Origin: Rhizobium sp. Leaf371 | GTDB taxonomy: Bacteria; Pseudomonadota; Alphaproteobacteria; Rhizobiales; Rhizobiaceae | Direction of reading: 5' to 3' | Length of the DNA stretch: 64,000 bases | Assembly (NCBI RefSeq): GCF_001424045.1 | Contig: NZ_LMQB01000023.1 | Coordinates: forward strand, 62,001-126,000 | Part shown: positions 29,761 to 60,475 of the stretch, one piece after another | Position numbering within the stretch: position 1 is the first letter of the stretch | Layout: every line of letters starts with the position of its first letter | Notes under the pieces: model-generated | Told to the model about the DNA's origin: nothing | What the model saw: only the letters and a program-made list of their open reading frames with translations | Database searches by the model: none | Position numbers and translations under genes: made by a program

Positions 29761-29786
29761 CACTAGGAAGCAAGCCTTGCGTGAAC
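29761..29786 (-). promoter_or_regulatory. candidate class II flagellar promoter of flgE
   Basis: On the minus strand GTTCACGCAAG (29786-29776), exactly 8 bases, then CCTAGTG (29767-29761), 31 bases before flgE. The same layout recurs before flgB, motA, fliF, the DUF1217 gene and the FliH-like gene. Confidence 0.65.
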
Positions 29787-29865
29787 CTGTTCAGGCTGTC
29801 CGTCCGGGCCGTCGAGCGACGGTTTGCGCTTATTTTTTTCAAACAGAAACAAGATCTTGAAACGG

Positions 29866-29936
29866 AAAGGGAGCCATGGCGTCCTCCGATTGCGAACCCT
29901 CGTCGTTCGCTTTCGAAAGATGCCATGGCTCCCTTT
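29866..29936 (-). repeat. 15-bp perfect inverted repeat with nested hairpin between ftcR and flgE
   Basis: AAAGGGAGCCATGGC (29866-29880) is matched perfectly by GCCATGGCTCCCTTT (29922-29936). The 41-base loop holds a second perfect stem, GCGAAC/GTTCGC (29892-29897 and 29905-29910). It begins 25 bases after the ftcR stop. It may end ftcR transcription, although the sequence after it has only interrupted T runs (TTT, TTGTTT), or it may form a structured RNA. Confidence 0.75.
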
Positions 29937-29960
29937 GGAAACCGGGCAGAGTTTGGAGGC

Positions 29961-30632
29961 TCAGCTCCAGTCGATGCAGTAGCCCAGGAAGCGCTTGCTA
30001 TCGATCGGGTCGAAGCCGAGCTTCTTGCGCAGCTTCTTGCGCAGCTTGCTGATGTGGCTTTCGACGACGTTCTCTTCGACGTCCTCGTCGAAGATGCCGT
30101 AGATCGCGTTGAAGATCTGCGACTTCGAGACGCGACGGCCGCGGTTTGCGACCAGATATTCCAGGATGCGGCGCTCGCGGCGCGGCAAGGCGAAGGTGTC
30201 GCCTTCGATTTCGGGATCACGACCGTCGGAGAAGACGCGGATCGCACCGATATCGGTGAAGTTGGAGAGGGACTTCAGGCGGCGGCGGATCGCCGCTGCA
30301 CGGGCGAGGATCTCGCGGGGATGGACCGGCTTGCGCACGACATCATCGACACCGCAGTCGAAGAAGGCGAGCGTGGCTTCCAGCGACGGGGTGTCGCTGA
30401 TGGCGATGACCGGTGCCGTGGACCGATCGCGGATCGCCCGGGGAAGGGTCATGGCCCGTTCGCCCTGACCGATCAGGAACGCTTCGACAGCGTCGATATC
30501 GCTGTCGGCGGCGGTGGAAACCCAGTCGCCGAATTCCTTGGGATCAAACCCGGTGGAGGGTACACCTTCCCGTCCGAAGAGAGAGGTATATCCGTCTTTT
30601 ACAAGTTCACGTTCATCAACCACTACGATCAT
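29961..30632 (-). CDS. ftcR: flagellar transcriptional regulator FtcR/Rem (orphan OmpR-type response regulator)
   Basis: A 223-residue regulator. [20 protein letters not shown] opens a degenerate receiver domain in which the acidic phosphoacceptor site is not conserved. A winged-helix domain follows ([32 protein letters not shown]...[16 protein letters not shown], about 142-200). In rhizobia and Brucella this is the class IB activator, under VisNR control, that switches on class II flagellar genes. The ATG at 30632 gives the family length, with GGAGCGG 5 bases before it. It has its own promoter region of 293 bases. Confidence 0.95.
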
Positions 30633-30661
30633 TCGTCCGCTCCGAATCAGTATGGTGTTTT

Positions 30662-30676
30662 CCAATACGTCATTGG
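30662..30676. promoter_or_regulatory. CCAAT-N5-ATTGG dyad upstream of ftcR
   Basis: A perfect 5-bp dyad, CCAATACGTCATTGG, is centred 37 bases upstream of the ftcR start. It is a candidate binding site for an activator such as VisNR, or a leader hairpin. Confidence 0.4.
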
Positions 30677-30925
30677 TACGAATCGTGGCGTCTTGTCACA
30701 ATTAGAGGGTTTGGGTGGGTAGAAATGGTACTAGCTGCGGGGTCTCACACCGATTTGATCAAGATATAGTGGCTCATTTCGGCACAACGACTAGAAATCC
30801 TGTGGAAAGGTTAACGCGTGTTAATGTCAGCCATTGCACGCGCCGCAATTGCGCCAAAAAATCTGCGCCGAAGCACGCCAAGAAATGACAGGTTTGAAAT
30901 CGCATAGGTTGTTCTATGAAGCACG

Positions 30926-31582
30926 CTACTGACAGAACGACGCCGCGTTGGGGGTCCATTTCCCATAGCCTGTCGCGACCAGATTGGCGATCACCCGGCA
31001 GACATATCGCTTCTGCGCGGGATCGTTGTTGGGCCCGGCGTGATATCGGGCGACAGCCATGGTCCATGTCTCGTGTCGCGCATGCAGGTTTGCCAGAAAG
31101 CGGGCCGCATATTCGACGTTCGAGCGAGGGTCGAGCATCGCCTCGGGCGACGCAAAATTCTCTCCGTGGTAGCGATAATTGATCTGCATGCAACCGAGAT
31201 CGATGAGCTTTGCGCCCTCCGCCCTCGCCGTCTGGAACCGTTGCAGCACCTCGGCCGCGCTGGAGGCGAACACCGCCTTGCCGTCGATGTTCATGGCATA
31301 AGGCTGCAGCGACCCCTTGCGGCCCGTCTCCGTCAGCCCCACCGAATAGAGGATGCCCTCGGGAATTCCGTACTTGGCCGCCGCCGCGATGATCTGGCCT
31401 TCGCACAAGCCGGCATCCGAGCCCGCGCCCGAACCCGCCCCGGAGCCGGATGCCGCCTGCGCGGAGACTGGAGCGCTAGAAATAAAGCTCGTCAGAAGGG
31501 CCAGGCTGAGGCGCAGCAGAGGCTTCGCGAAGCGCGTCTTGTCTTGTCCGCCCGTCATCCGCATTCCGTTGTCCCGTGCCAT
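30926..31582 (-). CDS. lytic transglycosylase (SLT domain), flagellar locus
   Basis: A 218-residue periplasmic muramidase. Residues about 17-42 form a signal peptide, followed by a Gly/Ser/Ala linker. The SLT domain has the catalytic Glu in YSVGLTETGR (E85), DLGCMQINYRYH (about 144) and ARYHAGPNND. It probably opens the peptidoglycan for the rod, replacing the hydrolase half of FlgJ, which is missing from the rod-binding protein at 20258. The ATG at 31582 is chosen for its GGAGAAGG ribosome site. This makes the signal peptide overlap the last 107 bases of fliK in another frame. Confidence 0.85.
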   Translation of the reverse strand: MARDNGMRMTGGQDKTRFAKPLLRLSLALLTSFISSAPVSAQAASGSGAGSGAGSDAGLCEGQIIAAAAKYGIPEGILYSVGLTETGRKGSLQPYAMNIDGKAVFASSAAEVLQRFQTARAEGAKLIDLGCMQINYRYHGENFASPEAMLDPRSNVEYAARFLANLHARHETWTMAVARYHAGPNNDPAQKRYVCRVIANLVATGYGKWTPNAASFCQ

Positions 31583-33239
31583 TCCGGCCTTCTCCGCCAT
31601 TGCCGGCCGCAAGGCCGCCCTGGGTGTCGCGTCCGTTCTGTGATGGCTGCTGCTGGTTGCCCTGCGGCTGGGAAGAGCCGTCATTGCCGCTCGCGCTGTC
31701 GGATGGCGTGAAGATGACGTTGACCTGATCGACCTGGAAGCCTTGTGCGCGCAGCGCCTTGATCATCGCATCCTGGTCGTCGGTGAGCTGGCGGTAGGCC
31801 TCGCCCGTCTGGACGCGAAGATCGATCTGCAGCTCGTCGTCTCGGAGACGCAGCGTCGCCGTGACGAGTCCGAGGTCGATCGGATGCATCTGGATCTTGA
31901 GGGTGTTGACCACCTTGCCTGTTGCGCCATCGGCACCCGGAAGGCTCGTATTGGCCTGGAGCGACTGCGTGGGGTCGCCATTGCCGGTAATGGCCGCGGC
32001 AACGGCCTGGGCATTGGCGGTCATCGGCAGGGAGCTGCCGAGCGTCGGCGCGATGCCGAGATAGCGGCGGGCATCCAGCACGGTGACGGTATCGGCCTTG
32101 GCGCTTGCCTGTTCATTTGCCGGGGTGGACACCGTCCGTTCGGCATCCGGCCGCAGCGACATCGGTACGACCTTGCCATCCGCACGCGCGAACCGGAACA
32201 CCTGGTCGGCGCCCTCCGTCGATGTCGGCAGGGTTGTGGCATGCGCTGATGCCGCCGGCATCGCCTGGTTCGTCTTCTCGCCCGCGAGCTTCGCGCTTCT
32301 CGGGCCGGTCTCCGACGCCAGGGTTGTTTTCTCGACCGGCGTAGTCTGCGCAGGCGGCGTCGTGACCGGACCGAGAATGGCCATGAGGCTGCGAATATCG
32401 GCCTCTGCCGCCGGCGTCGCCGCTGCGGCATCCGCCGCCATGGTCATAGCCTCCGGCTTGGTCTCATTCACCGCACGCTGATCGGTGCCCGAGGCCTTCG
32501 ATTCGTGAGCCGTTTCCCGATCGATGTCGGTGGTCGCGTCGGCGGTCTCGCCGGACGTGTCGACCGCCGTCTGCGCTGGCCCGGTCGGCAGAGGCGTTAC
32601 GACGGACGTTGCCTCTGCGGTTTTGATCGCCGAGAGTGCGGCGTCCTTCAGCTGGGAGTCCGGCTCCGGCGTGGCGTCTTTCACTGTGACGATCGATGCC
32701 GCCTCGTTCGCAGCCAGCAATGCTTTCGCCGTTCGGGAAGCGGCAGCCTGCAGGCGATCGGCCTTCTCGGCAAGACGCTCTGGTGCTGCAGCCGTGTCGG
32801 CGCTCGGCGCTTTCGCATCATCGACGGACGTTGCAGCGGCATTCGAAGCCGTCTCGTTTTTGATGGCCTTCAAAGCGAGGGTGGCAGAGAGTGTGGCCGC
32901 GGCCGACAGCCGCACCGACGGTGCGGAGGCTGCCTGCGGCCTCTTCCGATCGGCGCCCTCGGCGTTCCCGAAGACATTTGCGGTCGATGCTTCCGTCAGC
33001 AGCCCTTTCCGGCTGCCGGCGCTTTCGGCGGACGTCTCCTTCAGGGGCTCATCCCGTGTGTCCGCGATCTGGTTTGCGGATGTGTCTGTCGTTGCAGTCG
33101 TCTCGCGTCCGTTCTCGAGATCGGCAAAGGCCTTCTGAAAAGCCGCGCCGCCTTCGGCATCGCCCTGGCGGCTCTTGACGGCGGAAACGCTGGCGCGTGG
33201 CGTTCTTGCTGCCGGCAGCGCTTCATCAAGGGAATTCAT
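31476..33239 (-). CDS. fliK: flagellar hook-length control protein FliK (formerly MotD)
   Basis: A 587-residue protein with a long low-complexity Ala/Thr/Ser-rich N-terminal region (about 1-430) that acts as a molecular ruler. The C-terminal FliK switch domain follows: KIQMHPIDLGLVTATLRLRDDELQIDLRVQTGEAYRQL...MIKALRAQGFQVDQVNVIF (about 445-515). A Gln/Gly/Asn-rich tail ends it. In S. meliloti the homologue was first called MotD. It starts one base after motC. Its 3' end overlaps the transglycosylase gene. Confidence 0.92.
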   Translation of the reverse strand: MNSLDEALPAARTPRASVSAVKSRQGDAEGGAAFQKAFADLENGRETTATTDTSANQIADTRDEPLKETSAESAGSRKGLLTEASTANVFGNAEGADRKRPQAASAPSVRLSAAATLSATLALKAIKNETASNAAATSVDDAKAPSADTAAAPERLAEKADRLQAAASRTAKALLAANEAASIVTVKDATPEPDSQLKDAALSAIKTAEATSVVTPLPTGPAQTAVDTSGETADATTDIDRETAHESKASGTDQRAVNETKPEAMTMAADAAAATPAAEADIRSLMAILGPVTTPPAQTTPVEKTTLASETGPRSAKLAGEKTNQAMPAASAHATTLPTSTEGADQVFRFARADGKVVPMSLRPDAERTVSTPANEQASAKADTVTVLDARRYLGIAPTLGSSLPMTANAQAVAAAITGNGDPTQSLQANTSLPGADGATGKVVNTLKIQMHPIDLGLVTATLRLRDDELQIDLRVQTGEAYRQLTDDQDAMIKALRAQGFQVDQVNVIFTPSDSASGNDGSSQPQGNQQQPSQNGRDTQGGLAAGNGGEGRNGTGQRNADDGRTRQDALREASAAPQPGPSDELYF

Positions 33240-33240
33240 T

Positions 33241-34566
33241 CTACATATCCTCCCGAAGCAAGGCGTCGATCTCGCCCAGCTTGTTCTTTCCGCTCGTCAG
33301 AAATGTCGCCAGCGCCGGATCGGCATCCGCCGCAACCGATGGCCCGGCTTCGGCTTGCGCCGTCTGGGACGCCGTGGGCACCGCCGGGGCTGCAAAGGGG
33401 CTGTCGTTGCTGCCGGATCCCGAAAGGACTTCGGGAGACAATGTTTGTGACGACGGTGTATCAGCCTGAGCTTGTGCTGAACTGTCGATCGACGCCTCGA
33501 CCTTTGGAACCGGAGCGCGCAGGACCTCCCGCGCGACCGTCTGGGCGGCCTCTTTCAGGCTGCGGTCACGCGCCGAGAGTTCGGCATCGGGGATGGACTC
33601 GATGTCCTTGACCGCGTCGAGAATGCCGGTCGTCGGCACGTCCACAAGGTTCGAATAGAAGCTTGCAAGCGCGTTCGGCTCGGTATCCGCCGGCGCGGAC
33701 AGGGCCGCGGCCCGCTCGGAGGCAAGCTTCGTCAACGGTTTCAGACCCGCGATCGCCGCATTGCGCGCGAGGCGCAGAAAGACTTCGCGCTGGCGCGGCC
33801 TGTCCATGAAGGACAGGATCTCCTCAATCCTCTCCCGCGTGCGATCGCCATAGCTCGCAACCGCAAGTTCCACGAAGATATCGGCGAACTGGCCGGCATA
33901 GGGCGATGTCATGAAACGGCGCGTGTAGGAAAGCGAATAGCGCAACGCCTCGTCGATCTTGCCGGCGCGCGTGCTGAGCATGAGGGATCGGCGGAGAGCT
34001 GCTTCCTCGATATTCGTGCCTGGCGCGACCAGCCGGGCCCAGTCATAGGCCTTCACGGCCTTGCGCGGATCCTGCTGGGACACCGCATTGCCATAGACGA
34101 GAAAGAGATAGGGACCGATCGGCGCGTTCTTGTACTCGTCGATGGTCTTCGACAGCGTTTCCACGACCAGACCGCCCTTGCCGTTCAGGTACTGGCCGAG
34201 AGAATCTGTGATGCGATTGTCGAAGTTGCCGTCGATGTCGCGCCTTGCGAGATAGGCGAGCGTCTTCGGATTGCCGCCGCTCATCGCGTAGATCAGCGCC
34301 GCATCGACGTTGCGGGGATCAGCAAAGACGCTGCGGTCGGCCGCCATCAGGCGCTTGTCGATGGCGCCCAGCATGAACTGCTGCATATCGGCGGCGGAGA
34401 GATCGCCATGCACAATGCCGTCCTGCACCAGCTGCAGCGAGCGGATCATCTTGTAGGGCGGGAGATTTTCGTCCTGTTCCCCGGCCGCACGGACGCTCGA
34501 CAGCGTTGCGAGCCACGCGGCCGATGCGCAGGCACCGAGAAAGAGGAAACGGAGGGCCTTCGTCAT
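33241..34566 (-). CDS. motC: motility protein MotC
   Basis: A 441-residue periplasmic protein (signal peptide about 1-27) known only from rhizobia and relatives. There it binds the periplasmic part of MotB and is needed for rotation, with MotE as its chaperone. The body is helical repeats (PYKMIRSLQLVQDGIVHGDLSAADMQQFMLGAIDKRLM) and the C-terminal 90 residues are Ser/Ala/Pro-rich and probably disordered. It lies 3 bases after motB. Confidence 0.92.
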   Translation of the reverse strand: MTKALRFLFLGACASAAWLATLSSVRAAGEQDENLPPYKMIRSLQLVQDGIVHGDLSAADMQQFMLGAIDKRLMAADRSVFADPRNVDAALIYAMSGGNPKTLAYLARRDIDGNFDNRITDSLGQYLNGKGGLVVETLSKTIDEYKNAPIGPYLFLVYGNAVSQQDPRKAVKAYDWARLVAPGTNIEEAALRRSLMLSTRAGKIDEALRYSLSYTRRFMTSPYAGQFADIFVELAVASYGDRTRERIEEILSFMDRPRQREVFLRLARNAAIAGLKPLTKLASERAAALSAPADTEPNALASFYSNLVDVPTTGILDAVKDIESIPDAELSARDRSLKEAAQTVAREVLRAPVPKVEASIDSSAQAQADTPSSQTLSPEVLSGSGSNDSPFAAPAVPTASQTAQAEAGPSVAADADPALATFLTSGKNKLGEIDALLREDM

Positions 34567-34569
34567 GGC

Positions 34570-35760
34570 TCAGCCCTGATTCGACTGGATGAGGATTTCG
34601 ATACGCCGGTTGGCGGCGGCGTTCGGATCCTCGGGAACCTGCAGGCGCCGGTCGGCAAAGCCGCTGATCTGGCTGACGCGGTCTTCCGCAAGGCCGCCAT
34701 GGATCAGCATGTAATAGGCGCTCTGCGCCCGATCAGCCGACAGGCGCCAATTGTCGTAGCCGCCGGCCTTGAACGGACGTGCATCGGTATGACCGCGGAT
34801 GGCAATGGCGCCGGACCGGGTCGAGAGCAGCTTGCCGATCTTCTCCATGGCAAGAACCGTCTCGCGCTCCGGAACGGCCGAGCCGAGGCCGAACATCGGG
34901 GTATTGCTCTGCTCGCTGATCGAGACCAGCAATCCACCTTCGGTCGGCGTGACCAGGAGGCCCTCGGCAAGCTTGCCGGCCGCCCCGCCGATTTCCTTCT
35001 CGATCGCTTCCTTCAGTTCGGATGCCGCCTTGGTCTCGGCGACCGACGGCGCGGGTTTCGGCGTTGCCGGGTCGTTGGCGGCGACCATCGCATCGCCCTT
35101 GGCTTCGCTCTTGCCGTCCCCGACATTGTCAGCCGCACCGTTGCCGGTCTTGTCGCCGGCCGCCGATCCGGTCTCGGCGACCTTCTTCAGCTCAACCTGC
35201 TTCGCCCAGAAATCGGGATCGAACGGGTCGCGATAGGCTTCGCCGCCGGAGGCGCCGGTGGCCGGACCCGATGTGGAGGCACCGCCATCGCCCTTGGAGC
35301 TGATATTGGTTTCGCGCCCGACTTCGCTGGCGATTTCGGAGAGCACGGAATAGGGGTTTTCGAAAAAGTCGGCGTCGGAATACTTCGTTTCCTCGCCGGA
35401 GGTCGCGGATTCGTCCTCGCCGGATTTCGCCGATCCGCCGCTCTTCGGCTGGTTGCCATCGACCTTGGACCGCGCCTGCGTCTCTTCGCCCTGGGCGTCC
35501 TTGGCCGGCTCCTTCACACCCTTTTCCGAAGGCTCCTGCTGCGTCAGCTGGACCGGATTGAAATAGGAGGCGATGGCGGCCTTGGTCTTCGGGTTTGACG
35601 CATTGATCAGCCACATGACCAGGAAGAAGGCCATCATGGCGGTCATGAAGTCGGCATAGGCGATCTTCCACGCGCCGCCATGGCTGCCGCCATGGGCGGC
35701 CGCATGTCGCTTGATGATGATGATTTCGTTCTTGCCGTGATGGCTGTTGCTCTCGCTCAT
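34570..35760 (-). CDS. motB: flagellar stator protein MotB
   Basis: A 396-residue stator subunit. KIAYADFMTAMMAFFLVMWLINAS (32-55) is the single membrane helix with the proton-accepting Asp (D37). The C-terminal OmpA-like peptidoglycan-binding domain shows IRGHTDARPFKAGGYDNWRLSADRAQSAYYML (about 314-345). The linker of about 200 Ser/Ala/Asp-rich residues is longer than in enterics and is where MotC is thought to act. Its ATG overlaps the stop of the FliH-like gene (ATGA). MotA is encoded separately at 50812. Confidence 0.95.
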   Translation of the reverse strand: MSESNSHHGKNEIIIIKRHAAAHGGSHGGAWKIAYADFMTAMMAFFLVMWLINASNPKTKAAIASYFNPVQLTQQEPSEKGVKEPAKDAQGEETQARSKVDGNQPKSGGSAKSGEDESATSGEETKYSDADFFENPYSVLSEIASEVGRETNISSKGDGGASTSGPATGASGGEAYRDPFDPDFWAKQVELKKVAETGSAAGDKTGNGAADNVGDGKSEAKGDAMVAANDPATPKPAPSVAETKAASELKEAIEKEIGGAAGKLAEGLLVTPTEGGLLVSISEQSNTPMFGLGSAVPERETVLAMEKIGKLLSTRSGAIAIRGHTDARPFKAGGYDNWRLSADRAQSAYYMLIHGGLAEDRVSQISGFADRRLQVPEDPNAAANRRIEILIQSNQG

Positions 35761-36410
35761 GCTATCACTTTCCGTACGGTGTCAGCCCAGGCCGACAGCC
35801 GGGTCATCAGGATCGAATCGCCGAATTCGGCGGAGAGGTCGATGTCATCGGTTTCGACATGGCGGAAGGTCACTTCCGTGTCCGAAAGACGCGTCTCGAG
35901 CGCCTGGAACATCCGGGCCGGGCCGCGCACGGTGATCTTCACCGCGTCGCCATCGATGGAATGGCGGATGGCGGCCGCAAGCGACTCCACGGCTTTTTCG
36001 GTCAGCGTTTCCTGCAGGATCGGCGCGAGAACCTGGGCCGTCTGCTCGCAGATCATGCCGGCGAGCAGCGAACCGATCTCGCTGAAGCGCTGATGGATCA
36101 TCGCGGCGGCCTGGTTCTCGAGGCGCTCGCGGATGGTTTCGCACTCGGCTTCGTGTTGTGCGCGCAAGGCGGCGATCTCCGCCTGGTGGCGGGCGCGCAT
36201 CTCCATTTCGGCATGTTCGCGGCCGCGCCCGTAGGCGCTCTGGCGTTCGGCCTCGATATCGATGACCGGCTCCGGCGGTGCCTTGACGACCGGGCGCGTG
36301 TCGCGCGAGACGGGTTCTTCGATGTCGGGAAAATAGGTTTTCGGCACGCGCGTCAGGTCCACCTTCGGCGCGCTGAAATCCTTGAGATATCGGGAGAGTG
36401 GCGCCGTCAT
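35757..36410 (-). CDS. putative FliH-like export ATPase regulator
   Basis: A 217-residue protein. After a Pro-rich N-terminus comes a charged helix with small-residue spacing (AERQSAYGRGREHAEMEMRARHQAEIAALRAQHEAE, about 65-100), as in FliH. The C-terminal domain KITVRGPARMFQALETRL...HVETDDIDLSAEFGDSILMTRLSAWADTVRKV resembles the FliH/YscL/V-ATPase subunit E fold. FliH recruits and restrains FliI. The gene is usually called hypothetical in rhizobia, and no other FliH is visible here. It starts the motB operon. Identity rests on pattern and context. Confidence 0.55.
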   Translation of the reverse strand: MTAPLSRYLKDFSAPKVDLTRVPKTYFPDIEEPVSRDTRPVVKAPPEPVIDIEAERQSAYGRGREHAEMEMRARHQAEIAALRAQHEAECETIRERLENQAAAMIHQRFSEIGSLLAGMICEQTAQVLAPILQETLTEKAVESLAAAIRHSIDGDAVKITVRGPARMFQALETRLSDTEVTFRHVETDDIDLSAEFGDSILMTRLSAWADTVRKVIA

Positions 36411-36718
36411 CGTTGCATCTCCGGCATCGCCCGTCCCGCATCGTTGCGGACACAGGGTTTGCGGGCTGGGGACAACAGGCTTTCGGGGCCGAAACAACGG
36501 GTCATGGGCACGTCCGACCGTCTCCTTCTGGGCCCGTGCCGTGTCGGCAGAGCCCGGACATCTCGTTGAGCAGACAGGCGGAACGGGATCCGGAAGGCTG
36601 CAAGCGGCGGTACAAGGACAGGATGCACCGGCGGCCCTGCCCCGCACTGTGCGGGATCTTTGGTCCGGACGGCGCGCCTGGGAGGCGAGCACGGGCCGGA
36701 GACGGGGCTGCGAGAGGA

Positions 36719-36745
36719 GACTAGCGGGTCAAACTTGTGCGAGGG
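36719..36745 (-). promoter_or_regulatory. candidate class II flagellar promoter of the fliH-like/motB operon
   Basis: On the minus strand CCCTCGCACAAG (36745-36734), 8 bases, then GCTAGTC (36725-36719). It is the most divergent of six similar elements but keeps the 8-base spacing. It lies 309 bases before the first start codon. Confidence 0.45.
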
Positions 36746-36755
36746 TTGAAGGGTG

Positions 36756-36787
36756 TTGGACCGCGCTCGGGCAATAACGCGGTCCAA
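36756..36787 (-). terminator. terminator-like hairpin downstream of the third flagellin
   Basis: A perfect 10-bp stem, TTGGACCGCG (36756-36765) and CGCGGTCCAA (36778-36787) with a 12-base loop, lies 86 bases after the flagellin stop. No U tract follows on the minus strand, so termination would be imperfect or the hairpin serves as a 3' end stabiliser. Confidence 0.5.
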
Positions 36788-36872
36788 CCGATCCACCGAA
36801 GCCGATGACCGCGGCTCCGGCGAATGACGGCCTCGTCCCCCGACGACGGCGGAGGCAAGGCCTTGTCCGGCC

Positions 36873-37841
36873 TTACTGCTGGAAGAGGCGCAGGATATTT
36901 TCGGAGTTGGTGTTGGCGATGGAGAGCGACTGCACGCCGAGCTGCTGCTGCGTCTGCAGAGCCTTCAGGCGGGTCGATTCCTCGTTCATGTCGGCATCGA
37001 CCAGACGGCCGACGCCCTTGTCGATCACGTCGATCAGGTTGGCGACGAAGCCTTCCTGCAGGTCGATGCGCTTGGTGATGGCGCCGAGCGTGGAGGCTGC
37101 ATCCGTCAGGCCGGACAGGATCTCGTTGACGGCGGACAGCATGCCGGCAATCTGCTGCGGCGTCGTCGCCTGCGACAGTTCGATCACCGACCCGGCGGCA
37201 CTCGTGCCCCCTTGCGCGTTGATCAAGTGGTATTCGGTCGGAACGGTGCCGCCTGTGCCGTCGGGCTGATCGACCGTGATGTCCTTGGTCAGCTGACCGC
37301 GGGTCGGGTCCTGAAGATCGATCATGATCGAGGTGGACGTGTCGTAATCCAGCGTCGTCACCGAAACGGAACCGTCCGACGAACGGTTGAAGGAGCCGAC
37401 GATCGACTTGACGCCGACAGCGGTCGAGCCCGCATTGTAGAGCCAGTTTTCACCGGAGAAGGAGGCCGACTGTGCGGCGGCGGCGAGCTGGTTCTTCAGC
37501 TCGGAGAGTTCCTTGTTGATCTTGGACTTGTCGACGCCCGGCTCGCTGGCCGCAACGAGCTTGGACTGGATCTCGGTGATGACGTCGATCGAGGAGCTCA
37601 TGGCGGAATAGGACGTGTCCACCTTGGCGGCACCCAGACCAAGCGCGTCCTGGACCGTGGAGAGCGCCATGTTGTCGGAGCGCATGGTCGTTGCGATCGA
37701 CCAGTAGGCCGCGTTGTCGGACGCCGTTTCGACACGGTAGCCGGAGGAAACGCGCGCCTGGGTCTCTTCCATGGCAGTACTGATCGTGCGGAGCGTCTGC
37801 AGCGCAGCCATAGCTGCGGCATTGGTCATGATGCTGGTCAT
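36873..37841 (-). CDS. flagellin (third, most divergent copy)
   Basis: A 322-residue flagellin, 19 residues longer than the other two because of an insertion in the variable middle (about 150-230). N-terminal AALQTLRTISTAMEETQARVSSGYRV and the C-terminal helix RLVDADMNEESTRLKALQTQQQLGVQSLSIANTNSENIL are conserved; its end, LRLFQQ, differs from the LSLFR ending of the others. It is exported by the flagellar apparatus into the complex filament. Its upstream region carries two TTAA-N7-TTAA boxes (37948-37988) not found before the other copies, pointing to separate control. Confidence 0.95.
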   Translation of the reverse strand: MTSIMTNAAAMAALQTLRTISTAMEETQARVSSGYRVETASDNAAYWSIATTMRSDNMALSTVQDALGLGAAKVDTSYSAMSSSIDVITEIQSKLVAASEPGVDKSKINKELSELKNQLAAAAQSASFSGENWLYNAGSTAVGVKSIVGSFNRSSDGSVSVTTLDYDTSTSIMIDLQDPTRGQLTKDITVDQPDGTGGTVPTEYHLINAQGGTSAAGSVIELSQATTPQQIAGMLSAVNEILSGLTDAASTLGAITKRIDLQEGFVANLIDVIDKGVGRLVDADMNEESTRLKALQTQQQLGVQSLSIANTNSENILRLFQQ

Positions 37842-37947: not shown

Positions 37948-37988
37948 TTAAGGATGATTTAATCGTGTTATGGTTAACAAAGATTTAA
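37948..37988 (-). promoter_or_regulatory. tandem CtrA-consensus boxes upstream of the third flagellin
   Basis: Two TTAA-N7-TTAA elements lie at 37948-37962 and 37974-37988, 11 bases apart. On the minus strand the distal one reads TTAAATCTTTGTTAACCAT, the full CtrA consensus. They are 107-147 bases upstream of the flagellin start. Confidence 0.6.
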
Positions 37989-50684: not shown

Positions 50685-50751
50685 CTGATGGGGCGACCTG
50701 CACTTTTCCATCTTGCTTTCGCCCGCCCTTTGCCGGGGTTGCAGCCAGCCT

Positions 50752-50773
50752 CACGCAAGCAACGAACCCTAGG
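50752..50773 (+). promoter_or_regulatory. candidate class II flagellar promoter of motA
   Basis: On the plus strand CACGCAAG (50752-50759), exactly 8 bases, then CCTAGG (50768-50773), 39 bases before motA. It is back to back with the element for the divergent DUF1217 gene. Confidence 0.6.
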
Positions 50774-50811
50774 GATGGACACCACAATCCACCACTGCGG
50801 CAGGTAGAGAC

Positions 50812-51690: not shown

Positions 51691-51693
51691 TCC

Positions 51694-52632: not shown

Positions 52633-52692
52633 TCCGCCGCTCCCCCGGCCCGCGACAGGCTTGGGGCAAGTTTCAACTGGAATACTCTCGAC

Positions 52693-53277
52693 ATGGCACC
52701 CAGAAAAGCACCCATTACAGAAGACATGAGCGCGGGAGCGGGCGATGCTGAGCTCGACCAGGCGATCGATGACCTGCGCGGCGTTCTGAAGACGGATGCC
52801 GAGGGCGGACTTCCCGATACCGGCTTCGACATGGATTTCGGCGCGGCCCCTGCGGCAGAACCCGATTTCATGAGCGACTTCGGCGCGGTCTCGCAGGACG
52901 AAGATCCTTTCGCGGGCACCTTCTCCGAGCCGACGGCCTTTGCCGACACGGCTTTCGGCGGCGGTGACGATGCGTTCGAGGACAGCTTTGCGACGCCCTC
53001 GGCCACCGCCGGCGCGACGATGCACGGCAATCTCGACCTGATCATGGACATCCCGATCGACGTCCAGATCGTGCTCGGCTCCAGCCGCATGCAGGTTTCC
53101 GGCCTGATGGGTCTGACGGAAGGCGCGACCATCGCGCTCGACCGCAAGATCGGCGAGCCGGTCGAGATCATGGTCAACGGCCGGGTGATCGGCCGTGGCG
53201 AGATCACGGTCCTGGAAGAAGACGACACCCGGTTCGGCGTCAGGCTGATCGAGGTGAACAGCGGAAAGAAGGCCTGA
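52693..53277 (+). CDS. fliN: flagellar motor switch protein FliN
   Basis: A 194-residue FliN, longer than enteric FliN because of an acidic, Gly/Ala/Phe-rich N-terminal extension (about 1-110). The SpoA domain, [71 protein letters not shown] (about 117-187), is complete. It lies 60 bases after fliM. Confidence 0.95.
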
Positions 53278-53436
53278 GGGCCTTGAGAACGTGTGAAAGG
53301 CGGTCATGACGGCCGGCTTTCAGATCCTGCAAGGGCGACTGCACGCCGTCCGGACCATCAGGGCCCGGAGACCACGGCAGCCGAGTGAGAGCGTTTCGAC
53401 GTCGCGACTGAGCGCGACGCCGTCAAGGAAGGATCC

Positions 53437-54468
53437 ATGATGGATTACGATGATTTCGAAGCATCGGCGCTGACGCGCCCCCTGACCCAGATGGACAAGG
53501 CTGCCGCCGTGCTCCTGAGCATGGGCAAGCCGATTGCCGGGAAACTGTTGAAGTTCTTCACGCAGAGCGAGCTGCAGGGCATCATCGCCTCCGCGCAGAC
53601 GCTGCGGTCCATTCCGCCGCACGAGCTGGAAATCCTCGTCAACGAGTTCGAAGACCTGTTCACCGAAGGTGCGGGCCTGATGGACAATGCCAAGGCCATC
53701 GAGGCCATTCTGGAAGAAGGCCTGACGCCCGACGAGGTCGATGGCCTGCTCGGTCGCCGCACCGCATTCCAGTCCTACGAGACCAGCATCTGGGACAGGC
53801 TGCAGGATGCCGATCCGACCTTCGTCTCGCAGCATCTTTCGCGCGAACACCCCCAGACCATCGCCTATATCCTCTCCATGATGCCCTCGACCTTCGGCGC
53901 CAAGGTTCTGCTGCAGCTGCCGGAAAACGGGCGCGCCGACATCATCAACCGGACCGTCAACATGAAGAACGTGGCGCCGAAGGCCGCCGCGATCATCGAG
54001 ACGCGGGTCGTGGAACTGCTGCGCGAGATGGATGCCGACCGCAACTCCGCCGGTTCGGTCAAGATTGCCGAAGTCATGAACGAGATGGAGAAGAACGACG
54101 TCGACACGCTGCTTGCCTCGCTCGAATCGATCAGCACCGAATCGGTCAAGAAAGTCCGGCCGAAGATCTTCCTCTTCGACGACATCCTCCTCATGCCGCA
54201 GAGGAGCCGCGTCGCGCTCTTCAACGACATCTCGGGCGACATCATCACGATGGCGCTGCGTGGATCGAGCATGGAACTGCGCGAATGCGTGCTCGCCTCG
54301 ATCGGCGCCCGCCAGCGCCGCATGATCGAGTCGGATCTGGGCTCCGGCGATACCGGCATCAATCCGCGCGACATCGCCGTTGCCCGCCGCTCCGTCACGC
54401 AGGAAGCCATCCGGCTCGCCGCCAGCGGCCAGATCGAACTGAAGCCGAAGGAATCGGTCGCCGCTTAA
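53437..54468 (+). CDS. fliG: flagellar motor switch protein FliG
   Basis: A 343-residue C-ring protein. LSREHPQTIAYILSMM contains the EHPQ motif that binds FliM. The C-terminal torque helix, with alternating charges (RSRVALFNDISGDIITMALRGSSMELRECVLASIGARQRRMIESDLGS), faces MotA. AAGGAAGGA precedes the ATG. The 159-base fliN-fliG spacer contains an imperfect hairpin (53294-53322). Confidence 0.96.
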   Translation: MMDYDDFEASALTRPLTQMDKAAAVLLSMGKPIAGKLLKFFTQSELQGIIASAQTLRSIPPHELEILVNEFEDLFTEGAGLMDNAKAIEAILEEGLTPDEVDGLLGRRTAFQSYETSIWDRLQDADPTFVSQHLSREHPQTIAYILSMMPSTFGAKVLLQLPENGRADIINRTVNMKNVAPKAAAIIETRVVELLREMDADRNSAGSVKIAEVMNEMEKNDVDTLLASLESISTESVKKVRPKIFLFDDILLMPQRSRVALFNDISGDIITMALRGSSMELRECVLASIGARQRRMIESDLGSGDTGINPRDIAVARRSVTQEAIRLAASGQIELKPKESVAA

Positions 54469-54504
54469 GGCTGTCGAGCCTTTCAGCGCCAAGACATCGG
54501 AAGT

Positions 54505-54535
54505 CCGCCTGCGACCTGCGTCGCGGCGGGCTTTT
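54505..54535 (+). terminator. possible terminator after fliG
   Basis: CCGCC-TG-CGAC / GTCG-C-GGCGG form an interrupted 9-bp stem with a CTGC loop (54505-54529) followed by CTTTT (54531-54535), 36 bases after fliG. It could reduce read-through into flhB, which has a 214-base upstream spacer. Confidence 0.45.
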
Positions 54536-54682
54536 CGCGTTCAACGGGGCTGAACCCATCCCCGGCCGACCCGGACGAGGCCCTTGCCAGATGCGGCCCG
54601 TCGGCCCACAACATGGCGAACAGCGCCCGCCGGCCCGGGATGATCCGACCCGGCAGGCGCGCCGTCGTGAAGGACCGTTTCC

Positions 54683-55765
54683 ATGTCGGACGATCAGGAT
54701 AAAGACAGCAAAACCGAATCGCCGTCCGAGAAAAAGCTCAGCGATGCCGTGGAGAAGGGCAATGTTCCCTTCTCCCGCGAAGTCACGATGTTCGCTTCCA
54801 CGCTCGCCATCTACATCTATGTGGTCTTCTTCCTGCCGGATGGATTTCGGAGCATGGCCGAAGCGCTGAAGGATGTTTTCGAGCAACCGGATGCCTGGCG
54901 AATCACGACGTCGAACGATGCGTCGGCGCTGATCTCGAAACTCCTCTGGGCGTCGGGCTCCCTGGTCGTGCCGATCTTCGTGCTGATGATCGCGTTCGGC
55001 GTGGGCTCATCAATCCTACAGAACCTTCCGAGCCCCGTACTCGACCGGATCGCGCCGAAGCTCAACCGGATCTCGCCGATTGCCGGCGTATCGCGGATCT
55101 ACAGCGTTCCCGGCCTTGTCGAGTTCGCAAAGTCGTTCTTCAAGATCGCCGTCATCTCCGGCATCGTCGCGCTCACCCTGTCGGACGACTTCTACGCGAC
55201 GCTCGATGCCATGTTCTCCGATCCGTTCACGATCTTCGAGATCATCGGCCGCGACTTCAACAAGATCATGAACGTCGTCCTGTTCTCCACGGCCGTCATC
55301 GCCATTGCCGACTTCTTCTGGACGCGGCACCACTGGTACAGCGAGCTGCGCATGACCAAGCAGGAAGTGAAGGAGGAAATGAAGCAGACGCAGGGCGACC
55401 CCATCGTCAAGGCACGCTTACGCTCCATCGCTCGCGACCGTGCGCGGCGCCGGATGATTTCGTCGGTTCCGCGCGCAACGCTAGTCATCGCGAACCCCAC
55501 CCACTTTGCCGTGGCGCTGCGCTATGTGCGGGAAGAAGGCGACGCCCCGGTCGTGGTGGCCAAGGGGCAGGACCTCGTTGCGTTGCGCATTCGCGCCCTT
55601 GCGGAGGAAAACAACATTCCGGTCTTCGAGGACCCGCCCCTCGCTCGCTCAATGTTTGCGCAAGTCTCGGTGGATAGTGTCATTCCACCGGTGTTTTACA
55701 AGGCGGTCGCCGAACTCATCCACCGGGTCTACGCAACGAAATCGAACCCGACACGGATGAACTGA
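54683..55765 (+). CDS. flhB: flagellar export switch protein FlhB
   Basis: A 360-residue export-gate protein: four membrane helices (about 36-51, 88-111, 148-167, 192-212) and a cytoplasmic domain with the self-cleavage site NPTH (271-274). It switches substrate specificity from hook to filament on command of Fli[25 protein letters not shown] before the site is typical. A small unknown gene follows after 5 bases. Confidence 0.96.
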
Positions 55766-55770
55766 TTGCG

Positions 55771-56211
55771 ATGAAAAAATGCGAATATTCCGAACAGCGC
55801 GAAAAGATCGTTGCGGATGCCATCCGTCCGGTCGCAACCGAACTCCGTCTCATCGATGCCGCGGACTTCATCGCGCTGCTGCGCTATGAATCGCATGGCA
55901 GCCTGGCCGACCTCGTGTCGTCGGCGGCCGAGCTCTATTTCGTTCCGGGTACGGTGAATTTCGGCATTGGCGGCAACTACATGCTCGACTGGAACCGCAG
56001 CCCGGAAATCGTTCTCGACCTGGAGCTGAAGCCCGACGGCGTGACCGTCTATGCGCAGCTTGCCCTGCGGGACGATTCCGCGGCGATCGAGATCAACCAT
56101 ATCGCCTTCAAGAAGCCGTCGGTCGATCCGGACGAGAACACGGCGTTTCTCGCCCGCAGCTTGAATGCGGCCAAATTCATGAAAACCTTTCCGACGGCAC
56201 TCGCCAGTTAA
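55771..56211 (+). CDS. conserved hypothetical protein after flhB
   Basis: A 146-residue protein with no signal peptide or membrane segment. The visible fold is mixed alpha/beta, with strands such as LYFVPGTVNFGIGGNYMLDWNRSPEIVLDLELKPDGVTVYAQLALRDDSAAIEINHIAF. It starts 5 bases after flhB and is surely cotranscribed, and it is convergent with visR. I do not recognise a family. A soluble accessory of export or stator function is possible by position only. Confidence 0.75.
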   Translation: MKKCEYSEQREKIVADAIRPVATELRLIDAADFIALLRYESHGSLADLVSSAAELYFVPGTVNFGIGGNYMLDWNRSPEIVLDLELKPDGVTVYAQLALRDDSAAIEINHIAFKKPSVDPDENTAFLARSLNAAKFMKTFPTALAS

Positions 56212-56220
56212 GAAGGCTTT

Positions 56221-56964
56221 TCAGCTGATATAGCCAAGGCGGATCGCCTTGGCGATCGCCTGGATTCGGTTGACGGAGTCGAGCTTGGCGGTGGCCGCGC
56301 CCAGATAGGCGTTCACGGTGTGCACCGAGAGACCCATCTTTTCGGCAATCTCTTCGCTGATGTAACCATCGCCCGCCATCTGCAGGCAACCGATCTCGCG
56401 TTCGCTGAGCGCTTCGGCGGGCTGCAGCCGTCGCTCATCGGCGGCAAACAGGTCCGTCATCAGGTGGCAGCTTCGGCCGTGGAGATCGAGAATGATCTCG
56501 CTTGTCAGGTCGAGCGACGGCGCCATGAAGGCGACATAGCCATTTCCCTGCGCACCGAGGCGGACGGGGAAGGCGATCCCCGCATAGGACAGCGTCCGCG
56601 GCTTCATGCGGAGAACGAAGCGATCGAAATCGATCGTCTCCGCCGTCTGCCGGTTGTCCGCGCCGTTCCAGAGGAGCGGCAGGAGCGACGTGTCGAGATG
56701 CTGCTTCATCTCGTCGCCATAGGTCGAGACCACGTCCTGCGTCATCTCTTCCGCTGAGGTTCCCCAGTTGTCGAGGACGCAGGTCAGTTTGCGCGAAGCG
56801 GGCAGACCGTTTCCGTTCATTCGGAAGACGGCGAAGTTTCGAGCCTCGATATCCTTCTGCATCACCTGCAGGCGGGCAACGAGCAGGGCCGTGCGCGAGG
56901 CCCGTGTCTGGCGGCCGTTGCGGCTCTCATCGCCGCTCCGTCCTCCTGGAATATAGATGACCAT
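56221..56964 (-). CDS. visR: LuxR-family flagellar master regulator VisR
   Basis: A 247-residue regulator. An N-terminal PAS/autoinducer-like sensor domain (about 25-175) and a C-terminal LuxR helix-turn-helix (LSEREIGCLQMAGDGYISEEIAEKMGLSVHTVNAYLGAATAKL, about 187-230) are evident. In rhizobia VisR and VisN form a heteromeric class IA activator above ftcR. It starts 8 bases after visN. Confidence 0.93.
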   Translation of the reverse strand: MVIYIPGGRSGDESRNGRQTRASRTALLVARLQVMQKDIEARNFAVFRMNGNGLPASRKLTCVLDNWGTSAEEMTQDVVSTYGDEMKQHLDTSLLPLLWNGADNRQTAETIDFDRFVLRMKPRTLSYAGIAFPVRLGAQGNGYVAFMAPSLDLTSEIILDLHGRSCHLMTDLFAADERRLQPAEALSEREIGCLQMAGDGYISEEIAEKMGLSVHTVNAYLGAATAKLDSVNRIQAIAKAIRLGYIS

Positions 56965-56972
56965 CCGCGTTC

Positions 56973-57788
56973 CTATACCAGGTTGTTTCGAACCGCGCAG
57001 GCAATCGCTTCCGAGCGCGTCTTGGTCGCCGTCTTACGCATGACACTGGTGATGTAGTTGTTGATGGTATTGCGCGAGATGCCGAGGATAAGGGCGATCT
57101 CCTCGCTCGTCTTGCCTTCCGCGATCCAGGAAAGGCATTCGAGTTCGCGTTCCGTCAGGTCGAAATCGCGCTCCGAGCGCAGCGAGACGTCCCGCGCGAG
57201 GCTGGCGAAATAGCCCGTGAGGAGGCCGACGTCGCGCAGGCCTTCCCGCGACAGGATCAGGTCCTGCGGAAAGAGCAGCATCAGCGACAGGCGAAGCCGG
57301 CCGATCGAGAAGGTGATGGCGCAATATTCGCGGCTGATGCCGCGACCGAGGACGACCTCTTCGGGAAGGCGCATGAAGACAGGGTGCAACAGCGAGAGGC
57401 ACTTTTCCTGCTCGTTGGTCTTGGCGTGGAGGCCCTGCATGACCTGGCCCAGCCGCTTGACCACATCGAAGGGCCAATCCGAGACCATGACGAAGTCGAG
57501 GCCGCTGTCCTGCGACAGGTCGTAGCGCGCCAGCAGATAGTGACTGGCACCGACATAATCCGTCAGCGCCGCAAGCGCCTTGTTGAGCTGACCGCGCGCA
57601 GCGCAATCTCCGAGCTTCTCCAGAAGCTGGCGCTTGGCTGCGGGATGGCCGACCGGACTGATCGGAACCGACTGGCCTGCGTGAACTGCTGGGCCTGCGT
57701 GAACTGCCGGGCTCGAACCCGCCAGCGCTGCTCGCATCGAGGCGACCGGCATCGGTCGTCCCGCAATCTCCGTATGAAGAGCTTCCAT
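56973..57788 (-). CDS. visN: LuxR-family flagellar master regulator VisN
   Basis: A 271-residue partner of VisR with the same architecture: sensor domain (about 55-190) and LuxR helix-turn-helix (LTERELECLSWIAEGKTSEEIALILGISRNTINNYITSVMRKT). The ATG at 57788 is the best start (GGGGAA upstream). The N-terminal tail contains a tandem PAVHAG repeat encoded by an 18-bp duplication (57675-57710). It is transcribed from the AT-rich region upstream. Confidence 0.92.
   Translation of the reverse strand: MEALHTEIAGRPMPVASMRAALAGSSPAVHAGPAVHAGQSVPISPVGHPAAKRQLLEKLGDCAARGQLNKALAALTDYVGASHYLLARYDLSQDSGLDFVMVSDWPFDVVKRLGQVMQGLHAKTNEQEKCLSLLHPVFMRLPEEVVLGRGISREYCAITFSIGRLRLSLMLLFPQDLILSREGLRDVGLLTGYFASLARDVSLRSERDFDLTERELECLSWIAEGKTSEEIALILGISRNTINNYITSVMRKTATKTRSEAIACAVRNNLV
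57675..57710 (-). repeat. 18-bp tandem repeat inside visN
   Basis: Two adjacent 18-base units (57675-57692 and 57693-57710) differ at one base and encode a repeated PAVHAG hexapeptide near the VisN N-terminus. Confidence 0.85.
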
Positions 57789-58620
57789 GACATTTTCCCC
57801 GTGACGGATCCGGTCATGCAACCTGTGCACGCGCGCCGCCAAGGGCAGCAAACGCGGCCGGGGATCCGCTTTCCCCGACGAGCACACATCACCATGCGAA
57901 TCACTATCAAAACTATACAGGCCCGAACTCAAAAAACTACTGCCGGCTTATCGGGATTTACTTTTTGTTAATAACCTGAAGTGATTCGGACAAAAGACAT
58001 TACAAATCTGTCGTTCACCGTGAACAAACGGGAACCATCCTTTTAAATCATTGATAATTATCCATTTTTCTAGCAACCATATTGGCCGTCGCGGGCGATA
58101 ATGGCGGTGAATCGCGTTTTCCGGCGTTGCAACCATACGAAAATCGACGCCTGCCTGAGTCATGTTTCGAATCGGATTTGTATTTGCGAAGTCCATGTTG
58201 CGCAATTGCATCAGAATGGTTTCGAGCACAATAGCGTTCGTTGTGAAGCACACTTTTGATTAAACGAAGAACTATACCAGTTTTCGAAAGATATTTTCTT
58301 GGGCTGATACAATCATTTTTGACGCACCCGGAGTCGAGCCGCATCCGCAAGCAAGCAAATCGACCTTTCCACATAAAAAAGTGACCAATTGGTTAAATAG
58401 AGGAATCGTGCACGTGTCGCGTCGACCGTCGCGATACGGAGAGGACTGTGCCAAATGACACGAAGACTCCGCTCGGTGCCGTCCGTGACCTCTCCAAGCC
58501 TGAAAGAACCCACCCCGTCAGGCACCGTTTCTTGATCGCTCTGCCGCGCGCGGTCGGAAGGCTTGCACAAAAAAAATCCGCCGGAGGGGCGGATTTTTTC
58601 GCTGGCGGCGTCTTTCGAGG
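57789..58620. other. 832-base non-coding, AT-rich visN upstream region
   Basis: The stretch from about 57900 to 58400 is much richer in A/T than its neighbours. Open frames of 101-110 codons on the minus strand lack ribosome sites and family resemblance. It must hold the visN promoter and upstream control sites for this master regulator, and it ends in the fliF terminator (58571-58599). A small RNA cannot be excluded. Confidence 0.6.
58571..58599 (-). terminator. rho-independent terminator of fliF
   Basis: A perfect 12-bp stem, AAAAAATCCGCC (58571-58582) and GGCGGATTTTTT (58588-58599) with a 5-base loop, starts 21 bases after the fliF stop. The A/T arms make it active in either direction. 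Confidence 0.9.
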
Positions 58621-60303
58621 TCAGGCGGCTTTTTCTGCGACCCATTTGCGCAGGATCTTGGCCGCGCGTTCCTCGTTGATCTCGACCATGCGGGCCAGGC
58701 GCCGCTCCGGACCTTCCTTGACGCGGCGGTTGAAATCGCCGCCGTCTTCGCCGAGGCTGAGGAGGTCGTCGGTGCTGTCGAAGCCGAAATCCGAACCGAA
58801 ACCTTCCATCAGGGCACCACCCGCGGCACCTGCAGGGGCCGGCGAGAAGTCCGGCAGTTCGAGGCCGACAGCCTCGGTCTCCGTCAGGGTGCCCGGGCCG
58901 CCGAAGCCCATGGACCGTGCCAGGGGACGCAGGCCCATCCAGACGACGAGGACGGCCACCGTGATGAAGGCGAGTGCATTGATGATGCCACCGAGATTGC
59001 GCGTCAGCGTCTCCATGATGCCTGGGCCTTCTACCGGCGCATCGAGCAGCTCGGTGTTGACGAAGTCCATGGCGGTCAGCGTCACCACGTCTCCCCGGGC
59101 AGCGTCGATGCCGACGGCGGAGGCGACGATCTTCTGCATCTCGGCGAGATAGGTGTCGATCTTGGCCTGATCGGCGCCTTCGCCGATCATGGCGGCAACC
59201 CGGCCGCGGTTGACGACGACGGCGACGGAGAGTTTCTCGACCTTGAAGCTGTTCTTGGTGGTCGCGATCGTCTTCGAGTTGATCTCGTAGTTGGTCTGCT
59301 CTTCCTTCTTCTCGGCCTGGTCGTTCGACTGCGGACCGGCGCCACCGCTCTTGGGGGCGGCCTGGGGCACGTTCTGCTGAACGGTCGTCGCGTTGTCGGC
59401 CTGCTGCTGGCTCGACTTCTGTTCTTCCTTGGTGACCCGCGTCGAGCGTTCGACGCGCGATTCCGGATCGTAGGTGGTTTCCTGAACCTGCTGCGTGTCG
59501 GTGTTGAGCTGCGCGGTGACGCTGGAGCGGAAGTTGTCGACGCCGAGGAAGGGCGAGAGGGCCTTGTCGATGTTCTTTTCGATTTCGCCCTGGACGGACT
59601 GGACGATGGAGAGCGACTGGTTCATCGCGCCGTTCTGCGGATCGTCGCCCGAGGCCAGGAGCTGGCCGGCGCTATCGAGAATGGTCACGTCGTCGATGGA
59701 CAGGCCCGGAACGGAGGAGCCGACGAGATGGCGGATCGAGGCGGCAGCACCGCGACCGATGGTCGAGCTGGCGCGGATCATGACGGATGCGGTCGGCTTC
59801 TGCTCCGTTTTGCGGAAGCTTCCGCGGTCGGCCATGACGATGTGGACGCGGGCGGAGGTGATGCCGGAAATCTGCTGGATGGTGCGGGCGATTTCGCCTT
59901 CCAGAGCGCGGACCCGCGTGACTTCCTGCATGAAGGAGGTCAGGCCGAGCGAGCCGACATTGTCGAAGAGCTCATAGCCGGCATTGGCGCTGTTGGGGAG
60001 GCCGCGCTCGGCGAGGAACAGGCGTGCCTTGCTCGTATTGCCGACCGGGACCTGAACGCTCTTCCCGTCGGTGCCGACCTCGAAGGCGATACCGCCCTCG
60101 GCCAGCGCCATGGTGACCTGGTTGAGGTCTCCCGACTCCAGATTGACGTACAGGGTCTCGAAGGCCGGCTTGTTGACATAGAACCCGGCTGCCAGAACGA
60201 GCCCGATGGTTACGAGGGCCGCCGCCGCCATGGCGATCAGCTTGCCCTGCCCCAGGCTCGTCAAATTTTTCGTGACCGACGAAAGTTGATCTAACAGATT
60301 CAT
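58621..60303 (-). CDS. fliF: flagellar MS-ring protein FliF
   Basis: A 560-residue MS-ring subunit with membrane helices at about 25-45 and 440-460. The ring-building motifs MALAEGGIAFEVGTDGKSVQVPVG and ARLFLAERGLPNSANAGYELFD...FMQEVTRVRALEGEIARTIQQI are typical. The FliG-binding C-terminus (RRVKEGPERRLARMVEINEERAAKILRKWVAEKAA) is intact. The ATG at 60303 is used. It has its own terminator, and its own promoter after the che terminator. Confidence 0.96.
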   Translation of the reverse strand: MNLLDQLSSVTKNLTSLGQGKLIAMAAAALVTIGLVLAAGFYVNKPAFETLYVNLESGDLNQVTMALAEGGIAFEVGTDGKSVQVPVGNTSKARLFLAERGLPNSANAGYELFDNVGSLGLTSFMQEVTRVRALEGEIARTIQQISGITSARVHIVMADRGSFRKTEQKPTASVMIRASSTIGRGAAASIRHLVGSSVPGLSIDDVTILDSAGQLLASGDDPQNGAMNQSLSIVQSVQGEIEKNIDKALSPFLGVDNFRSSVTAQLNTDTQQVQETTYDPESRVERSTRVTKEEQKSSQQQADNATTVQQNVPQAAPKSGGAGPQSNDQAEKKEEQTNYEINSKTIATTKNSFKVEKLSVAVVVNRGRVAAMIGEGADQAKIDTYLAEMQKIVASAVGIDAARGDVVTLTAMDFVNTELLDAPVEGPGIMETLTRNLGGIINALAFITVAVLVVWMGLRPLARSMGFGGPGTLTETEAVGLELPDFSPAPAGAAGGALMEGFGSDFGFDSTDDLLSLGEDGGDFNRRVKEGPERRLARMVEINEERAAKILRKWVAEKAA

Positions 60304-60450
60304 TCTGTTTCGCACCCAGTAGCGCACTTCACCGCGCGAGATTGCACGGACAAAGCTTCATTGCGCAGTCCCAACATCAGGGTCCGATCCGGCCGCTCTG
60401 GGCGAAAACCTTCGCACATGCGGGCACAGATCCATCTGACCCGTTTGGAG

Positions 60451-60475
60451 AATAGGATGCGAAGCTTGCGCGAAC
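60451..60475 (-). promoter_or_regulatory. candidate class II flagellar promoter of fliF
   Basis: On the minus strand GTTCGCGCAAG (60475-60465), exactly 8 bases, then CCTATT (60456-60451). It lies 148 bases before fliF and directly after the che operon terminator. Confidence 0.6.

Follow-up and report, generated by a model that had tools for sequence, protein, structure and literature searches.

A predicted Rem operator joined to a sigma70 -10 element at the class II flagellar operons of Rhizobium sp. Leaf371

The flagellar gene cluster of Rhizobium sp. Leaf371 contains a repeated promoter-like element, cAGnYYCRCRCAAG-N10-TAnnnT, in the stretch of 64,000 nucleotides analyzed here (contig NZ_LMQB01000023.1, positions 62,001 to 126,000, forward strand; called the window). 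We predict, with a probability of roughly 85%, that the element is an activator-dependent promoter in which an operator for the flagellar regulator Rem stands in the place of the -35, is followed by a sigma70 -10, and switches the class II flagellar operons. The sequence of the element, its spacing, its repeat, its conservation and its co-occurrence with the rem gene were observed directly.

In the proposed mechanism, the left part would be a tandem operator of two AGNYT half-sites 11 base pairs (bp) apart, bound by Rem (FtcR in Brucella, LafR in Bradyrhizobium), probably as two molecules. The right part would be TANNNT, a sigma70 -10 separated from CAAG by a constant 10 bases. With TANNNT placed at -12 to -7 from the transcription start, the operator would lie over the -35 position and span -36 to about -20. 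Rem would replace the missing -35 and contact RNA polymerase as in class II activation, its two winged-helix domains on the two half-sites holding the polymerase on the -10. VisN/VisR would switch on rem, and Rem would then switch on the class II operons together. The candidate targets are flhA, flgE, orf-motBC-fliK (orf, open reading frame), flgB, DUF1217-flgF-fliI, motA and fliF, and probably the gene after flhB. From the form and distribution of the box, we infer that Rem binds it.

An original prediction, made from the letters of the window, described six of these sites with the pattern YYCRCGCAAG-N8-CCTAGT (the noted pattern). The coordinates and strands of all six hold in the window, with 0 mismatches before flgE and flgB, 1 before motA and fliF, 2 before the motB unit and 3 before DUF1217. 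The list was incomplete, and a pattern scan of the window adds a site before flhA (24270-24293, minus strand, 1 mismatch); a site inside flhB had also been missed. There are 9 matches with at most 3 mismatches in the window, compared with a mean of 2.86 and a largest count of 7 in 100 dinucleotide shuffles, none of which had 9. The exact form CRCGCAAG-N8-CCTAG occurs four times in the genome of 5.09 megabases (Mb), before flhA, flgE, flgB and motA, each time within the flagellar cluster, against two occurrences of the reversed control pattern. We also scanned with a weight matrix trained on the sites of 30 relatives, with the genome of the window left out as a control for circularity. It gives eight matches of 22.7 to 33.5 bits in the window, seven of them at operon heads, and the next best reach 11.8 and 11.1 bits. 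One random 5-Mb strand gave 2 matches above 18 bits. The eight strong matches are as follows.

24268..24299, minus strand: predicted Rem-box promoter before flhA, 25.3 bits
29760..29791, minus strand: predicted Rem-box promoter before flgE, 33.5 bits, the best in the window
36718..36749, minus strand: predicted Rem-box promoter before the unit orf-motB-motC-fliK, 30.3 bits
46876..46907, minus strand: predicted Rem-box promoter before flgB, 28.9 bits
50658..50689, minus strand: predicted Rem box before DUF1217-flgF-fliI, 23.8 bits, with a degenerate -10, CAGCTT
50744..50775, plus strand: predicted Rem-box promoter before motA, 27.3 bits
55649..55680, plus strand: predicted promoter inside the 3' end of flhB, 22.7 bits
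60449..60480, minus strand: predicted Rem-box promoter before fliF, 31.7 bits

The anatomy of the element was read from 148 candidate orthologous sites before six genes, aligned by the left ten bases alone (at most 2 mismatches; 137 of the 148 have at most 1). The right half and the upstream part played no role in the alignment. Downstream, T is found at +20 in 128 sites, A at +21 in 141, and T at +25 in 106. A TANNNT starts at +20 in 91 of the 148, and every other offset from +10 to +35 has at most one site. Upstream, C is found at -4 in 97 sites, A at -3 in 139, and G at -2 in 105. These columns form a direct repeat with the left half, AGNYT-N6-AGNYT, with r = 0.72 at 11 bp and at most 0.33 at the other offsets from 6 to 15. 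When the second half-site is scored against the upstream columns, 11 bp is the only offset from 6 to 15 with a positive score.

The window encodes a regulator of the type that may bind such a repeat.

29961..30632, also given as 29961-30665, minus strand: rem/ftcR homologue with a degenerate receiver and an OmpR-type winged helix, by Pfam and alignment

Pfam finds Trans_reg_C at 2.4e-16, and Response_reg at 23.9 bits is under the cut-off of 30.2. An alignment of 15 rem homologues shows strong conservation of the winged-helix half, and where an acceptor aspartate would be expected the window reads VEAFLIG. Among the best 80 of 527 named rem loci, the closest relatives are Rhizobium sp. PP-CC-3A-592 and NFR03, with a 99% identical protein. 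We call this OmpR-type regulator Rem, which agrees with the description of an aspartate-less, OmpR-like protein in passages of PMC9812332. Passages of that paper and of PMC8429497 present Rem as a direct activator of class II flagellar genes that is active without phosphorylation and whose gene is activated by VisN/VisR, and FtcR is reported, in a passage of PMC9456535, to bind upstream of fliF. The sites have two traits of a Rem regulon: the regulator gene is present with them, and their targets are class II flagellar operons.

The box follows the rem gene across genomes. We counted the pattern ANNYYCRCRCAAG-N10-TANNNT, with its reversed form as a control, in 151 genomes of the family, which we took to be GTDB Rhizobiaceae, judged from the named rem relatives. 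The 127 family genomes with rem contain 420 sites and 33 controls, and 121 of them have at least one site; the 24 without rem contain 8 sites and 6 controls. Taken alone, this contrast cannot separate rem from flagella, because only 4 of the 24 genomes without rem have a FlhA match; the confounding of rem with flagella in the other 20 counts against resting our interpretation on the family. A sample of 239 genomes from other families of the order does separate the two. Its 55 genomes with both FlhA and rem contain 54 sites and 11 controls, and the 132 with FlhA and without rem contain 15 sites and 36 controls (Fisher p = 7e-10 between these groups, for genomes with at least one site). There are 14 sites and 11 controls in 50 genomes with neither gene, and 5 sites and 1 control in two genomes with rem and without a FlhA match. 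Outside the family, the element tracks rem and not flagella. Where rem is present, sites exceed the reversed-pattern controls genome-wide, in keeping with the original prediction. In the other-family genomes with rem, 22 of 59 sites lie within 50 kilobases (kb) of rem, in nine families.

We read 21 sites in 20 hand-chosen stretches (12 sites within 50 kb of rem, one in a genome without rem), matching the first open reading frame of at least 80 codons behind each site to the flagellar proteins of the window. A flagellar match follows 12 of the 21: motA (4), flagellin (3), flgE (2), and flhA, flgB or DUF1217 for the rest. Ten of these 12 are sites near rem. In two other families, three genomes that each contain two or three FlhA matches have a box before a flagellin 18 to 29 kb from rem, and this flagellin may belong to a lateral flagellum set.

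Co-occurrence cannot name the binder, and another regulator inherited with rem, such as VisN/VisR or an unnamed factor, could read the box. Two candidate genes of this kind are also in the cluster.

56221..57932, minus strand: two LuxR-type genes (Pfam GerE), which we take, from their position, to be visR and visN

We consider a reader other than Rem improbable. A direct repeat of 11 bp fits an OmpR-type protein better than a LuxR-type protein. In 13 of 31 regions, most of which keep some boxes, visR has no tblastn match (E 1e-4), although these regions are 40 kb long and visR may lie elsewhere. Azorhizobium and Bradyrhizobium have rem homologues and lack visNR according to passages of PMC8429497, and the sites near rem extend to the nine other families.

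The right part of the element appears to be a -10. The register of the original prediction for CCTAGT was two bases out; the letters are better read as TAGTnT, a -10 of the form TANNNT. In the 126 sites with TA, we looked for a TTGACA-like -35 at 16 to 19 bp and found none with 0 or 1 mismatch and two with 2 mismatches, a lower count than at random places; the resemblance to TTGACA is no closer than there. OmpR/PhoB-type class II promoters have direct half-sites in tandem, spaced by about 11 bp, a constant distance between operator and -10, and a weak or absent -35, and these traits are all found here. The distance from TANNNT to the start codon, placed by tblastn, is generally small, with 18-46 bases at flgB and 26-55 at flgE, but 20-149 at fliF.

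The fixed spacing, the single orientation and the usual nearness to a start codon would also suit a composite promoter of an alternative sigma factor, with the left part as a -35-like element, the right part as a -10, and no activator site. This is less probable still. The right element is an ordinary sigma70 -10, a repeat of the left element lies 11 bp upstream, and the box tracks a transcription factor gene. The sigma54 form TGG-N9-TTGC is found at 1 of the 148 sites and the sigma28 -10 form GCCGATAA at 0. The original prediction had named both a composite -35/-10 and an FtcR/Rem site fused to a promoter; the former fits less well, given the lack of a TTGACA-like -35 and the place of the left element in an OmpR-type repeat of 11 bp, and the latter is the better supported.

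The layout is also conserved before orthologous genes; together with the excess over controls where rem is present, two of the three outcomes named as refuting the original prediction were looked for and did not occur. We took 40 kb around rem from 30 relatives of the same family, chosen from the 151 genomes to span identity with long contigs preferred, placed orthologues by tblastn, and scanned 300 bases upstream and 30 downstream with the noted pattern, counting the genome of the window. With at most 2 mismatches, it is found before flgB in 18 of 26 genomes, fliF in 14 of 25, flgE in 12 of 30, flhA in 10 of 24, motA in 7 of 26 and DUF1217 in 3 of 22, and the reversed pattern has no match before these genes at that threshold. 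Also at this threshold, the noted pattern is absent before motB, flgK, flgL, fliM, fliG, flhB, fliI, flgF, flgC, motC, rem and visR. Among the 13 other genes with more than two sequences, flaA alone has a match (1 of 27 genomes), and the control of this flagellin may be different. Only two genomes, the window among them, allowed the orf before motB to be placed; sites resembling the one before orf-motB-motC-fliK are present in named rem loci. The named loci, the best 80 of 527, come from Sinorhizobium, Ensifer, Shinella, Agrobacterium, Neorhizobium, Hoeflea and others. Each has at least two sites above 15 bits, and 300 of 305 sites are on the rem strand, although some of these organisms may overlap the 30 relatives on which the matrix was trained.

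One strong match lies in coding DNA. The site inside flhB is about 90 bases upstream of a small gene.

55771..56211, plus strand: gene of 146 amino acids with no Pfam family at E up to 1, the putative target of the flhB-internal promoter

This gene follows flhB in 22 of the 30 other regions, with identities as low as 28%. The site has 3 mismatches to the noted pattern and scores 18.2 to 23.7 bits in 15 genomes, including that of the window. Our first reading of this match was a coding coincidence, which we dropped after a codon test. At the aligned place, 19 of 25 genomes compared have glutamine, encoded by CAA in 15 and by CAG in 4, and all four CAG genomes have a more distant rem. In the 15 CAA genomes, chosen for CAA and a high score after the scores had been seen, CAA makes up 6 to 26% of glutamine codons, and two other invariant glutamine columns are CAG in 13 of 15 and 15 of 15. 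The 15 are the genomes with a rem at least 67% identical and with the flhB end in the 40-kb region, and the pattern follows a clade. The aspartate codon in the site is GAT in 14 of 14, and the valine codon in the spacer varies. Of 135 segments of 11 codons, the one from codon 322 has the highest codon conservation, with only four scorable columns, and on average the main codon has a share of 0.82 over the site versus 0.68 elsewhere. The codons at the site look constrained in the nearer relatives. We read the site as a predicted promoter in the coding DNA of flhB, before the conserved gene of 146 amino acids. One other genome has a match of 19.5 bits elsewhere in flhB.

That the shared layout reflects chance, or the shared ancestry of intergenic DNA with no function, is hardly credible: orthologous sites are related by descent, but the layout is common to eight separate places in one window, columns beyond -6 to +26 hold at most 0.19 bits each, and the flhB-site codons fit the element in the nearer relatives.

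Several observations weigh against a Rem operator joined to a sigma70 -10. The 148 sites are related by descent and not independent, six are from the window, and a few of those with 2 mismatches look spurious. In the 137 sites with at most one mismatch in the left half, a complete TANNNT is rare at flhA (9 of 20) and motA (6 of 25), and DUF1217 sites keep TA in 8 of 17. The box is not in every genome with the regulator, as no exact match is found in 6 of the 127 family genomes with rem or in 25 of the 55 other-family genomes with FlhA and rem. In the other-family genomes with rem, 37 of 59 sites are not within 50 kb of rem, and behind 9 of the 21 sites that were read, the next open reading frame has no match to the flagellar proteins of the window. 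The rem promoters contain no good copy of the box (the best has 3 mismatches in the window and 30 relatives, 31 in all), and autoregulation of rem through the box is not supported; Brucella FtcR binds its own promoter by chromatin immunoprecipitation sequencing (ChIP-seq), according to a passage of PMC9456535. The same passages give an FtcR ChIP-seq motif, TGTGGGCA, in 118 of 363 peaks. Neither strand of any of the 148 sites contains this motif, and its one occurrence in the window is not at the sites. Either FtcR differs, or its direct operator at flagellar promoters is something other than the ChIP-seq motif.

A wider claim is that cAGnYYCRCRCAAG-N10-TAnnnT without a -35 is a code shared by Rem, FtcR and LafR across the order, for main and lateral flagella, that it revises the published FtcR motif, and that the flhB copy is held by fixed synonymous codons and drives the conserved gene. 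We favor this claim, with distinctly less confidence than the promoter reading in the window. In a large group of bacteria that live in soil or in association with plants or animals, Rem/FtcR/LafR connects the upstream control of motility to the flagellar hardware, and a defined operator would make the Rem regulon computable in any genome. It would also suggest how a regulator without a phosphorylated aspartate acts through sigma70 promoters that have no -35, and provide a direct check on the published ChIP-seq motif, which does not occur at these promoters. The flhB-internal site points to a promoter hidden in coding DNA.

Pfam identifies these proteins and domains in the window: FHIPEP (FlhA), FlgK, FlgE domains, a FliK hook-length domain, MotB, three flagellin-family proteins (the one adjoining flgK taken as FlgL), FlgH, FliE, rod proteins, a FliI-type ATPase, a FlgF-like protein, DUF1217, MotA, two FliM/FliN-type proteins, FliG, FlhB, the two LuxR-type regulators, FliF and CheB. 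The finer gene names are our assignments from position. At the DUF1217 site, the left half is good and CAGCTT stands in place of TANNNT; TA is also missing in six close relatives. The open reading frame in the motB unit (35757-36692) had been labeled FliH-like, a label that finds no Pfam support. In most relatives its homology begins no earlier than residue 81. The gene may therefore start near 36410, in which case some 300 bases of leader would follow the promoter. The fliF gene (58621-60327) is separated from its site by some 145 bases in the window and by 123-149 bases in five other regions; in 13 of 25 the gap is 20-30 bases. Between two flagellin genes, at 37948-37988, there are two CtrA-type TTAA-N7-TTAA boxes and a TTAACCAT. 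Elsewhere in the genome are matches of 23.2 bits (by eye before a cold-shock-like protein), 22.6, 21.4 and 21.1 bits that we do not claim as sites, given the two matches above 18 bits in the random strand. The ninth-ranked match in the window is a weak one.

33455..33486, minus strand: weak site in the 3' end of motC, upstream of fliK, 11.8 bits

It may be a decayed copy. In 8 of 12 named loci compared, a site of 17-30 bits (at 7.3-7.6 kb) is found at a distance from rem similar to that of the weak site.

The box resembles several known systems. The PhoB box, the CtrA box and the FeuP motif likewise consist of half-sites repeated in tandem every 11 bp in sigma70 promoters, and their half-sites differ from the one described here. 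The CtrA form TTAA-N7-TTAA occurs at 1 of the 148 sites. The FeuP motif TTCA-N7-TTCA, from a passage of PMC3616915, also occurs at 1. In the passages of that start-site map of S. meliloti that describe its de novo motifs 1 to 3 (TTG...A, TTTGTTAACCAT and TTCA-N7-TTCA), these are unassigned promoter motifs of a related species, and none is this element; the string "flagell" is absent from the main text of the map. Our literature search, whose scope did not include Rotter 2006, Leonard 2007 or the MirA study, turned up no Rem operator consensus. The Brucella ChIP-seq motif was proposed for the same kind of regulator and differs from the box in sequence. The closest system is that of the Rem/FtcR/LafR flagellar regulators of the Rhizobiales (Hyphomicrobiales): a homologue is encoded in the window, the sites precede genes of the class II type that the cited passages describe as activated by Rem, and the box follows rem across genomes. 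Sequence and distribution together support the box as a probable new operator of this known kind.

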